Assembly: GCA_029820295.1 (NCBI GenBank)
Contig: JALGVA010000028.1
Coordinates: forward strand, 1-49,140
Length of the DNA: 49,140 bases
Source: Candidatus Zipacnadia bacterium
GTDB lineage: Bacteria > Armatimonadota > Zipacnadia > Zipacnadales > UBA5352
Reading direction: 5' to 3'
Both the position numbers and the translations under genes were made by a program. The number at the start of each line of letters is the position of its first letter. Positions within the stretch are counted from its first letter, which is position 1. Below are positions 41,213-46,270 of this stretch, piece by piece. The notes below the pieces were generated by a model, which saw nothing but the letters and a program-made list of their open reading frames with translations, had not been told where the DNA came from and did not search any database.

Positions 41213-41473
41213 ATGGCTCGTAGTGTGGGCGATACGCGAGCAGGCAGTGCCAACGCAAACGGCGGCAACACGGTCGCCGACGACTCGGCGGAGGTGCTTG
41301 CCGCCATCGTTGCAGCGATCAATGCCGATCCGCTCACCCCCGAAGAGCGCCGCCAGCGGATGGCGGAGTCGCTGGCGCGCTGCAACGCGCTGCGGGAGCG
41401 TCTTCTCGAGGAGATGGGGGAACCGCTTCCGGCCGGCTGGGGGGCCAGGATGATCCGGGAGGGGCGGCCTTGA
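41213..41473 (+). CDS. Antitoxin of a VapBC-type pair
   Basis: 86 residues from ATG 41213 (GAGGAG upstream, spacing about 11). The C-terminal part (PLTPEERRQRMAESLARCNALRERLLEEMG) is helical and ends in ARMIREGRP, like the toxin-wrapping tails of antitoxins paired with PIN toxins. The N-terminus has no clear ribbon-helix-helix, so the DNA-binding type is unclear. Its stop overlaps the toxin start (TTGA). TATACT at 41161-41166 may be the -10 of its promoter. Confidence 0.7.
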   Translation: MARSVGDTRAGSANANGGNTVADDSAEVLAAIVAAINADPLTPEERRQRMAESLARCNALRERLLEEMGEPLPAGWGARMIREGRP

Positions 41474-41940
41474 TCCCGCCGGCGGAAAGCGTCGTGTGCG
41501 TGGACGCGTGCTTGGCAGTCAAGCTCATCCTCCCCGAGCAGGATAGCGAGTCCGCGGTTGCTCTCTGGCAGGAATGGCAGCAGAGCCAGATTCGGGTGAT
41601 CGCGCCCTCATTGATCACCTGGGAAGTCGCGAACTCGATCCGCAGGACGGTCCTGGGCGAGCGCTTGCCCGTGCACGCCGCTGGGGACGCATACTCGGCA
41701 TTCCTCGGCCTCGGGATCACGACCACGACGTATAGCCGCCTCCCCGTTCTTGCCTGGCGGCAGTTTGTGCTGGCCTCCGACCTGCGCATCTCGCCCTATG
41801 ACGCCACGTACCTGGCGACCGCCCAGGCGGCCGAGTGCGAGCTGTGGACCGCTGACGATCGTCTGGTCTGCACCGTCGGCGACGAACTGCCGTGGGTGCA
41901 TTCGCTGAGCGAGATCGCCGGACAGGTCGCCGACGGGTAG
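41470..41940 (+). CDS. vapC: PIN-domain toxin, VapC family
   Basis: 156 residues from TTG 41470, overlapping the antitoxin stop by the sequence TTGA. The four acidic PIN residues are visible: D12 (VCVDACLAVK), E52 (TWEVANSI), D111 (SPYDATYLATA) and D129/D130 (WTADDRL). Family members are Mg-dependent ribonucleases that cut tRNA or rRNA and are held inactive by the cognate antitoxin. This is the only clear defence- or stress-type module in the window. It ends 7 bp from the convergent flavodoxin gene. Confidence 0.88.
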   Translation: MIPPAESVVCVDACLAVKLILPEQDSESAVALWQEWQQSQIRVIAPSLITWEVANSIRRTVLGERLPVHAAGDAYSAFLGLGITTTTYSRLPVLAWRQFVLASDLRISPYDATYLATAQAAECELWTADDRLVCTVGDELPWVHSLSEIAGQVADG

Positions 41941-42600: not shown

Positions 42601-43833
42601 ATGAGCGAGACCGCGGGCTTCCCCGCCGATGATGTGCGCGTTGTGCGCGATCTGGCCGCGCGCGTGATGGAGCTGGCGCAGAGCGAGGAGTACGAGCGCC
42701 GCCGCCGGCGCTGGCGTGACGTGAACGAGCTGCGCCGGCCCGACCGCGCGCCGGTGTGGTGCCGTCCGGCGCTGAGCTGGCGGGAGATAATGCCTGAAGA
42801 CACCCTCGAGTGTGAGGACCCCACCTGTCGCAGCGTCGAGCGCCTGCTCCGTCGCGACCTGTACAAGCACTGGGTCGGCGATGACCACATCCGCCCGCCC
42901 TGGTGGTCGGTGCGTGCTATCATCCGCCCCGAGGAGACGCCGATGTGGGGGCTGCCGACCCGGCAGTCGATCGGCTCCACCGAGCAGGGCGGCTTCAAGT
43001 ACCATCACCCGATCGAGACCCCCGAGGACTACGAAAAGCTGCGCGTGCCCCGCTTCCACCATGACGCTGCGGCGACCGAGAGGGCGGCGTCACAGATGCA
43101 GGACCTGCTCGGGGAGGTGATGCCGGTGCGGGTTGAGGGCTATCCGCCTCTGATCCCGATGCAGCAGTATTACCTGGAGGCGTTGCGCGGGATGGGGCCG
43201 ATGATGGAGGACCTGGCCTTCCGCCCGCATCTGGTGCACCGCGCGATGGCGAAGCTCACCGAGGGCATCCTCAACGCCATGCGCGCGGCCGAGGAGGCCG
43301 CGGTGCTGACCACCAACCACCACGAGCCCATGTTCTGCTCCGACCCGATCAACGACCCGCCCGCAGAGGGCCCGGTGGGCCTGCACAACCTGTGGGTCGC
43401 GGCCAACTCCCAGGAGTTCGACACCGTCGGGCCGGCCATGCACGAGGAGTTCCTGCTCAGCTACCAGAAGGTCTGCTTCCAGAGCTTCGGGCGCGTGCAG
43501 TACGGCTGCTGCGAGAGCCTGTCGCACAAGACCGACATCGTGCTGGGCATCCCCAACCTGCGCGTCTTCGTGTCCAGCTTCTGGAGCGACCTCGACGAGG
43601 TCATTGCAGCCTGCGGGAAGCGCTACTGCATCATGTGGCGGCAGTCCGCGGCGCAGGTGACGCTGCCGGACACGCTCGACGAGCACCGCGCGCACCTCGA
43701 GGCGGGCATGTCGCGCCTGCAGGGACACTTCTACCAGGTGGTGCTGCGCGAGCTGGAGACGCTACACGGCCACCCCAACCGCCTGCGCGACTGGGCGCGA
43801 CTGGGCATCGAGATGGCCGCGAAGTACGCCTGA
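42601..43833 (+). CDS. UroD-superfamily protein, divergent (2)
   Basis: 410 residues, longer than the other two. ATG 42601 with GGAG upstream. A long helical N-terminus (VRVVRDLAARVMELAQ) precedes the barrel. RVQYGCCESLSHKTDIVLGIPNL is the recognisable segment of a UroD-like subgroup, and the family H-x-C-G zinc motif is missing; the CC pair may take its place. Late segments FVSSFWSDLDEVIAACG and HLEAGMSRLQGHF also fit. Function is unassigned. A 76-residue gene follows after 14 bp and is probably in the same transcript. Confidence 0.75.
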   Translation: MSETAGFPADDVRVVRDLAARVMELAQSEEYERRRRRWRDVNELRRPDRAPVWCRPALSWREIMPEDTLECEDPTCRSVERLLRRDLYKHWVGDDHIRPPWWSVRAIIRPEETPMWGLPTRQSIGSTEQGGFKYHHPIETPEDYEKLRVPRFHHDAAATERAASQMQDLLGEVMPVRVEGYPPLIPMQQYYLEALRGMGPMMEDLAFRPHLVHRAMAKLTEGILNAMRAAEEAAVLTTNHHEPMFCSDPINDPPAEGPVGLHNLWVAANSQEFDTVGPAMHEEFLLSYQKVCFQSFGRVQYGCCESLSHKTDIVLGIPNLRVFVSSFWSDLDEVIAACGKRYCIMWRQSAAQVTLPDTLDEHRAHLEAGMSRLQGHFYQVVLRELETLHGHPNRLRDWARLGIEMAAKYA

Positions 43834-43847
43834 GGGGGCGATCAGAG

Positions 43848-44078
43848 ATGCGCCGACGCGGACGCTACGTGCACGCACGCGGGCAGCACAGCTTCCGGCT
43901 GGACCTGGTGCTGGAGTTGGACGAGCCAGCGCGCCCCGGCGAGGCCGGTCAGGTCGCGCGGCGGGTGCTCGAGGCGCTCCAGGTGGGGATGCCGCAGGTG
44001 CCCGACGGACTCGCCTCCTGCCGCCTCGTCTGCCAGGAGCTGCGCGCGAACATCACGCTGGTGCCCGAGGGCGGGTGA
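43848..44078 (+). CDS. Small protein, 76 residues, downstream of UroD-like gene
   Basis: ATG 43848 lies 14 bp after the previous stop and has a GAGGGGG ribosome binding site overlapping that region. The product starts MRRRGRYVHARGQHSFRLDL, has acidic middle helices (GQVARRVLEALQVG), two cysteines and ends ITLVPEGG. No family was recognised. Spacing and the good ribosome binding site support a real gene, perhaps an accessory of the UroD-like protein; composition alone does not exclude a spurious frame. Confidence 0.6.
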   Translation: MRRRGRYVHARGQHSFRLDLVLELDEPARPGEAGQVARRVLEALQVGMPQVPDGLASCRLVCQELRANITLVPEGG

Positions 44079-44081
44079 TGG

Positions 44082-44239
44082 CGCCGGGCGTGCCGAGTCT
44101 ACGGCGCGCGGAGGGGCACACGCTCTCGTCACGGTGGCTGCCGTGACTCGCGCGAAGGGGCGCCGGGCGTGCCGAGTGTGCGGCGCGCGGAGGGGCGTAC
44201 ACTCTCGTCACGGTGGTTGCCGTCAGTCGTGTGGAGGGG
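44082..44239. repeat. 79-bp tandem duplication
   Basis: Unit 1 is 44082-44160 and unit 2 is 44161-44239, about 86% identical and directly adjacent. Both begin CGCCGGGCGTGCCGAGT and contain CTCTCGTCACGGTGG. Each unit has a small ACGG...CCGT stem. It lies immediately after the 76-residue gene in otherwise non-coding DNA. Confidence 0.8.
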
Positions 44240-44534: not shown

Positions 44535-45218
44535 ATGCCCAGCGACCTGCACATGGCTCTGCAGAACTTCTATGCGCGGCGGCACGGCGCCGGCACTGAC
44601 GGCCGCGTCGAGGTCGAGATGGACGGCTACCGCGCGGATGTGCTGCGCGGAGAGGTCGTCTACGAGATCCAGACCGGCTCGTTCACCGCCATCCGCGACA
44701 AGCTGCGCGCGCTCGCTCGCGAGCACCCGGTGGTGCTGGTGCACTCCATCGCGCGCTACAAGTTCATCGCGCACATCGACCCCGAGACCGGCGCCGAGCT
44801 GTCCTGCCGGCGTTCCCCCAAGCAGGCGCAGCCGGTCGAGGTCTTCGGCGAGCTGGTCCACGCCCCCGACCTGCTGCGCCGCGACAACCTGTCGCTGGAG
44901 ATCGTCATCACCGCCGAGCGCGAGCTGCGCTGCGCCGATGGCGCCGGGAGCTGGCGCCGCAAGGGCGTGTCCATCGTCGGCCGCGAGCTGATGGCGATCC
45001 TGGAGATCCTGCGCTTCGACCGCCCGGCCGACCTCGCGCGGCTGCTTCCCGAGGGCCTGCCCGAACCCTTCACGACCGCCGACCTCTCGCAGCACGGCCA
45101 GATGCGCCGACGCCTCGCGGGCCGCATGGCCTACGCGCTGCGCGAGGCCGGCGCCATCGAGCAGGTCGGCAGGCGCGGAAACGCCTACCTCTACCGATGC
45201 GCCGGAGACGCCTCATGA
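44535..45218 (+). CDS. Uncharacterised protein, possible nuclease-like fold
   Basis: 227 residues. ATG 44535 (GAGG 7 bases upstream) is preferred to the long upstream extension, which is repeat DNA. The N-terminal half has an alternating pattern with conserved-looking acidic residues, YRADVLRGEVVYEIQTGSF (D35, E44-I-Q46), then ALAREHPVVLVHSIA, which resembles the D...ExK core of restriction-endonuclease-like folds with Q in place of K. The C-terminal half (PFTTADLSQHG; MRRRLAGRMAYALREAGAIEQVGRRG) resembles a winged helix. Function is unknown; the nuclease idea is inference. It overlaps the next UroD-like gene by ATGA, implying tight co-expression. Confidence 0.7.
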   Translation: MPSDLHMALQNFYARRHGAGTDGRVEVEMDGYRADVLRGEVVYEIQTGSFTAIRDKLRALAREHPVVLVHSIARYKFIAHIDPETGAELSCRRSPKQAQPVEVFGELVHAPDLLRRDNLSLEIVITAERELRCADGAGSWRRKGVSIVGRELMAILEILRFDRPADLARLLPEGLPEPFTTADLSQHGQMRRRLAGRMAYALREAGAIEQVGRRGNAYLYRCAGDAS

Positions 45219-46270
45219 CCTCGAAGCAGCGTGTGCTGACGGCCTGCCGTCACGAGCAGCCCGATCGCGTGCCCCTGCAGGTCTACCTGACGCCGGAGAT
45301 CCACCGGCAACTGCGCGAGCACTTCGGCGGCGATGTGCTGGAGGCGCTGGGCATCGACCTGCGCGGCGTCGGCGCGTCGTATTGTGGCGAGCTGCGCCCC
45401 GGCCCGGGCTTGCCCGGCGAGGCCGATTACTACGACATCTGGGGCATCGGCTACAGCATGACGCAGTACCAGGGCGGCACCTACCCCGAGGCGACCGAGC
45501 TGCCCTTCGCCGCCATCGACACCATGGACCAGGTCGAGGCCTACCCGTGGCCGAGCGTGGACGACTACGACTACTCGGGCGTGCGCGAGCGCGCCCAGGC
45601 GCTGGGCGAGTACGCGGTCATCTTCGGTGGCGCGGGCATCCCCGACATCGTCAACGGCGTCTCCCGCGGGCGGGGCATGGAGCGTGTGCTCATCGACATC
45701 ATGACGAATGATCCGGTCGGCATCGCCATCATCGACCAGCGCGTCGAGCACTACTACGAGCACTGCCGACGCGGCCTCGAGGCCGGCGGCGGGGCCATCG
45801 ACATCCTCGCGCTGGGCGAGGACTGTGGCGACCAGCGCGGCCGGCTCTTCCCGCCGGCGGTCTTCGACGAGTTCTTCGTCCCGCGCATCCAGCCATTCAT
45901 CGACCTGGCGCACGAGTTCGGCGCACTGGCGATGCTGCACTCGTGCGGCGACACCCACGACATCATGCCCACCTTCGTCGGGATGGGCCTGGACATCCTC
46001 GATGCCATGCAGCCCGAGCCCGCGGGCATGGACCCGCCGACCATCAAGCGCCTGTACGGCGACCGCCTGACCTTCTGCGGGCTGGTGAGCACCCAGCAGA
46101 CCCTCCCGCACGGCAGCGTCGAGGACGTACGGCGCGAGGTGCGCGAGCGCATCGACGTCATGGGCGCCGGCGGCGGCTACATCTGCGCGCCCGCCCACTG
46201 CATCCAGCCCGATACGCCGCTGGAGAACGTGCTGGCGATGTACGACGAGGCGCTCAACTACCGTCCGTGA
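45215..46270 (+). CDS. UroD-superfamily protein, probable cobalamin-linked methyltransferase (3)
   Basis: 351 residues. ATG 45215 overlaps the preceding stop (ATGA) with GGAG upstream. Opens MTSKQRVLTACRHEQPDRVPL. The zinc-site set of MtaA/MtbA-type methyltransferases appears complete: H242 and C244 in LHSCGDTHD, and C329 in APAHCIQPDTPLENV. This is the best candidate of the three for a real methyltransferase, moving methyl groups between a corrinoid protein and an acceptor. No corrinoid protein gene is adjacent. It is co-translated with the nuclease-like protein. Confidence 0.85.
   Translation: MTSKQRVLTACRHEQPDRVPLQVYLTPEIHRQLREHFGGDVLEALGIDLRGVGASYCGELRPGPGLPGEADYYDIWGIGYSMTQYQGGTYPEATELPFAAIDTMDQVEAYPWPSVDDYDYSGVRERAQALGEYAVIFGGAGIPDIVNGVSRGRGMERVLIDIMTNDPVGIAIIDQRVEHYYEHCRRGLEAGGGAIDILALGEDCGDQRGRLFPPAVFDEFFVPRIQPFIDLAHEFGALAMLHSCGDTHDIMPTFVGMGLDILDAMQPEPAGMDPPTIKRLYGDRLTFCGLVSTQQTLPHGSVEDVRREVRERIDVMGAGGGYICAPAHCIQPDTPLENVLAMYDEALNYRP

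Follow-up and report, generated by a model that had tools for sequence, protein, structure and literature searches.

A PD-(D/E)XK-fold, winged-helix protein family of Armatimonadota and Gammaproteobacteria as a probable PD-EXQ nuclease

Genes at the P1 locus

The DNA analyzed here, which we call the window, is a 49,140-nucleotide stretch of the genome of a Candidatus Zipacnadia bacterium of the phylum Armatimonadota. Its class (Zipacnadia/WS1) has been described as made up mainly of anaerobic acetogens whose Wood-Ljungdahl pathway is partial (PMC10290634). The gene at 44535..45218 on the forward strand encodes a 227-residue protein of an unnamed family, designated P1, in which a PD-(D/E)XK-fold domain (44535..45020; residues 1-162, with D35 and E44-x-Q46) is followed by a C-terminal winged-helix domain (45021..45215; residues 163-227). 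This gene ends in ATGA (45215..45218), and the ATG of that overlap is the start codon of the following gene on the same strand, P2 (45215..46270), which encodes a 351-residue URO-D family protein resembling methyltransferases of the MtaA type. Both reading frames, their coordinates and their overlap are as described in a first-pass annotation of the sequence. The P1 start at 44535 is supported by homologues within the phylum, which align from MP(S/T)xLH.

Three further features precede P1 on the forward strand: a gene for a second, divergent URO-D-like protein of 410 residues (42601..43833), a small conserved ORF of 76 residues (43848..44078), and, between the small ORF and P1, a 79-bp tandem duplication whose two copies are 86% identical (44080..44237). 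The duplication occurs nowhere else in the genome and is absent from nine relatives, and its repeats fold no better than shuffled sequences. The window contained no Rfam match, and a search around the genes for promoter and terminator patterns found none. Farther upstream, at 41470-41940, lies a VapC-like PIN-domain ORF (PF01850, E 1.6e-8) that has a small ORF just before it.

Fold and putative active site of P1

AlphaFold modeled both the full-length P1 protein (pLDDT 94) and its N-terminal domain alone (pLDDT 91.9) with confidence. The N-terminal model consists of a helix (residues 4-15), strands at 24-29, 32-38 (containing D35) and 41-46 (containing E44 and Q46), a second helix (50-63, containing K56) and a strand at 66-81, after which come R92, S94, P95 and K96. 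This order, helix-strand-strand-strand-helix-strand, matches the PD-(D/E)XK core; D35 lies on core strand 2, and E44 and Q46 lie on strand 3. When the domain was compared with solved structures using VIA-align, SfsA ranked first (PDB 4dap; Z 7.8 over 115 residues, 3.3 A), followed by AF2093 (Z 6.8), YaeQ (6.7) and NucS (6.5), and in Foldseek the first two matches were BglII (best E 0.056); scores of this size, with Z below 8 and E above 0.01, can also arise between proteins that share an arrangement but not a function. A CdiA toxin domain, Cdn1/Can2, McrC, BamHI, BstEII and BglII appeared further down the VIA-align results, the first thirty rows of which held few non-nuclease entries. Each of these numbers is weak singly; the assignment to the PD-(D/E)XK fold draws its strength from top rows that converge on one superfamily, together with the position of the motif in the appropriate strands. 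Residues 163-227 matched winged helices of the ArsR/MarR/Fur type (Z 6.4-7.7).

An alignment of 36 diverse family members from two phyla contains thirteen invariant residues, including H6, E26, D35, E44, Q46, K56, R92, S94, P95 and K96, and the family motif reads E-(A/V)D-E(I/V)Q, with the lysine absent. The D...E-x-Q positions that the annotation had read from the sequence are thus borne out as D35 and E44-I-Q46, and its description of a nuclease-like N-terminus and a winged-helix-like C-terminus agrees with the models and the structural comparisons. A PD-EXQ variant of the active site has been described for CoiA and BglII, and a nuclease domain combined with a winged helix has precedents in COG5482, NaeI and TnsA (PMC1189080).

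Pfam, NCBIfam and PADLOC hold no model of the P1 family and returned no significant match to it, and neither these searches nor profile comparisons with CoiA and SfsA revealed a link at the sequence level to known nuclease families. Sequence searches of solved structures with P1 gave chance matches only. Distant members of the PD-(D/E)XK superfamily are often missed by profile searches.

We compared P1 with the known proteins that it most resembles. SfsA of E. coli (PF03749), the best structural match, is likewise a stand-alone chromosomal gene with a PD-(D/E)XK-fold domain, but it begins with an OB domain, its motif is EVK (PMC1189080) and it lacks a C-terminal winged helix. Membership of P1 in the SfsA family was rejected, as P1 has no PF03749 match, no OB domain in its model and an EIQ motif, and the profile comparison was not significant. 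YaeQ (PDB 2g3w, 3c0u) and NucS (PDB 2vld) share the core fold of P1 over about 89-109 residues (Z 6.5-6.7), whereas their additional domains are different, and no sequence relation to P1 was found. CoiA (PF06054) shares the PD-EXQ active site (PMC1189080) but differs in its flanking domains. An hhalign comparison placed RADV..YEIQ of P1 on RADVL..EFQ of CoiA without significance (probability 0.6%), and with PF06054 matching 0 of 18 P1 members, assignment to this family was likewise rejected; no CoiA-family structure was among the structural matches listed for P1, which is no argument against a relation. Proteins of COG5482 (the A. tumefaciens AGR_L_2570 family) have, as P1 does, a nuclease domain and then a C-terminal winged helix, but their motif is E-CD-ELK (PMC1189080), as against EIQ without a lysine, so P1 was set apart from them on the described motif rather than on a profile. 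BglII (PDB 1d2i) has an EXQ active site, but it is a sequence-specific type II enzyme with a DNA methyltransferase partner, of which P1 has none adjacent. The spacing of D35, E44 and Q46 equals that of D84, E93 and Q95 in BglII. Together, the modeled fold and the invariant motif suggest that P1 is very probably a PD-EXQ nuclease.

Distribution of the P1 family

Single-copy homologues of P1 with 45-70% identity were found in 18 of 60 relatives, and the family is present in 24 of 291 Armatimonadota genomes, that of the window included. Homologues of about 36-42% identity to P1 occur in marine Gammaproteobacteria. A scan of GTDB contigs with the single P1 sequence gave no match; an alignment scan was required, which gave 28 hits, and because it used a single peptide pattern the count of family members is a lower bound. 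The family is under purifying selection: among the most similar pairs for which dS was usable, dN/dS was about 0.05-0.28, the tightest pairs giving about 0.05-0.11 and the pair G003/G009 about 0.28. These homologues, the GTDB matches and the dN/dS values indicate that P1 is no chance reading frame. A literature search found nothing on the family, which is new to the databases searched, yet of a known kind, PD-(D/E)XK. Homologues in family f6 (L033 5439-6257, L034 3612-4427, L035 8306-9121) are extended at the C-terminus by a zinc-ribbon-like segment that bears two pairs of the CxxC type.

In the Gammaproteobacteria (L051-L065) the P1 gene has a conserved metabolic neighborhood of acyl-CoA carboxylase-like, histidine-phosphatase-like and acyl-CoA dehydrogenase-like genes; these names rest on the sequences themselves and not on a family search. 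These neighbors were considered as P1 partners and rejected, being transcribed mostly in the opposite direction.

In G014, G017, G026 and G028, homologues of the small ORF lie immediately upstream of P1, at most about 10 bp from it or overlapping it. These four genomes come from two families other than f1, the family in which P1 adjoins P2. Within the class the small ORF is found in five genomes, always directly upstream of P1, and it is a better candidate for a P1 partner than P2. It is not an obligate one, given that more distant homologues occur without P1 in family f21 (G146, G148, G177 and G196). Some of the homologues in that family (L110, L112, L113) adjoin glycosidase-like genes, in both orientations. 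A tentative proposal, to which we give a low probability, is that P1 and the small upstream protein form an undescribed two-gene nuclease module, in which the small protein would control or target a nuclease of the PD-EXQ, winged-helix type, with a part in DNA repair or in defence.

The distribution of P1 also bears on the possibility that it is an anti-phage defence nuclease, acting either by itself or together with the product of the small upstream ORF. Its presence is patchy among close relatives, in comparisons involving the window genome it has diverged more rapidly than P2 (66% against 85% identity between G000, the window genome, and G003), the small gene precedes it in all five Zipacnadia genomes that have that gene, and a PIN-domain gene lies close by; each of these would suit a defence function. 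However, none of 27 family members matched any PADLOC anti-phage defence model, and PHROG gave no nuclease match for P1, its matches in the members examined (Ren-like exclusion proteins and a phage regulator) being confined to the winged helix. The family was also absent from the phage, plasmid and viral collections searched, its Gammaproteobacterial members sit in stable metabolic synteny, and the small protein is found without P1 in another family. We therefore regard a defence role as unlikely.

URO-D neighbors and the role of P1

P2 is a member of the URO-D family (PF01208; 74 bits against a cut-off of 23.9), but it scores far below the cut-off of the MtaA/CmuA model TIGR01463 (60 against 235.4 bits). 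Its nearest solved structure is the methylcobamide:CoM methyltransferase MtaA of M. mazei (PDB 4ay7, E 1.4e-8), with which it shares the URO-D fold family and an H-x-C...C arrangement. The label of a zinc site that P2 had been given holds in part: the zinc-type ligands H242-x-C244 and C329 are present in P2 of the window, G003 and G009, but in the G008 orthologue C329 is replaced by Asn, so the third cysteine is not general among P2 orthologues. The activities of the URO-D family are methyl transfer between corrinoids and thiols and the decarboxylation of porphyrins; its members are not known to methylate DNA. P2 most likely serves the acetogenic metabolism of these anaerobes, where it would exchange methyl groups between small molecules and either a corrinoid or a thiol. 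The window genome encodes at least 59 URO-D superfamily (PF01208) genes, and at least 22-61 matches were counted in each of 20 relatives, an expansion possibly linked to methyl metabolism in acetogens.

URO-D-type genes flank P1 throughout f1. The second URO-D-like gene (42601-43833) also adjoins P1 in G003, G005, G006, G007 and G009, with a paralogue next to P1 in G017; the gene is found in 32 of 46 genomes, mostly unlinked to P1. This setting, and the resemblance of the winged helix to ArsR/MarR/Fur regulators, would suit a P1 that has kept the nuclease fold but is an inactive DNA-binding regulator of the neighboring URO-D genes, in an autoregulated operon. A pure regulator would have no need of D35, E44, Q46 and K56, which are nonetheless invariant in 36 sequences from two phyla. 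Moreover, most P1 homologues have no URO-D neighbor, and with so many URO-D genes in the genome such neighbors come cheap and chance adjacency is expected. These observations make the regulator an improbable alternative to a nuclease.

The annotation had also proposed that P1 and P2 may form an undescribed two-component system, to be examined by a survey of the pair across genomes. The ATGA overlap is base-for-base identical in the window genome, G003, G007, G008 and G009, whereas in G005 the end of P1 is frameshifted; in all, the overlap is seen in five to six genomes, and in the clade that carries it the two genes are probably translated together. Adjacency of the two genes is confined to f1, and the P1 proteins with the overlap form one clade (support 99/96), indicating that the overlap arose in a single event. 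Within f1 the presence patterns are identical, seven genomes having both genes and three neither, and there may be a lineage-specific link between P1 and P2 in this family. Outside f1 the presence of the two genes is not associated (Fisher p 0.49). P2 orthologues occur without P1 in G011, G012 and G029 and unlinked to it in G006, G014, G016 and G030, and seven genomes have P1 without a P2 orthologue. Nor does the pair resemble a restriction-modification system, which was considered and rejected: the scan of flanking genes found no match to a DNA methyltransferase, the matches of P2 are limited to families of the URO-D and MtaA/CmuA kinds and to MtaA of M. mazei, and proteins of the URO-D/MtaA type do not belong to the DNA methyltransferases. 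A true two-component nuclease-methyltransferase system is thus very improbable, for all the base-identical overlap and the matching pattern within f1, because the pairing is limited to a single clade, each gene occurs alone elsewhere, URO-D genes are hugely expanded, characterized URO-D/MtaA members do not move methyl groups onto DNA, and one of the overlapping P2 orthologues has lost the third zinc-type ligand.

We favor, with a probability of roughly three in four, the reading that P1 is a chromosomal, metal-dependent PD-EXQ nuclease with a DNA-binding winged helix, and that P2 is no conserved functional partner. From the computed fold and motif we infer that P1 cuts DNA. Its active site would comprise D35, E44 and Q46, probably aided by the invariant E26 and K56 and by the R92-S94-P95-K96 loop, and the winged helix would bind DNA and so bring the catalytic domain to its target. 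The role of such a nuclease is likely to be in the processing of host DNA, in repair or recombination, with defence less likely.

Of what had first been read from this locus, the nuclease half therefore stands with good confidence, and the two-component half does not. The locus also shows that, in genomes crowded with a family of methyltransferase-like genes, conservation of a stop-start overlap with one of them need be no more than a local accident. With thirteen residues invariant in 36 diverse members, the putative active site is directly testable. The PD-(D/E)XK nucleases would gain an unlisted family in two phyla, one that combines the rarer PD-EXQ site with a built-in DNA-binding domain.
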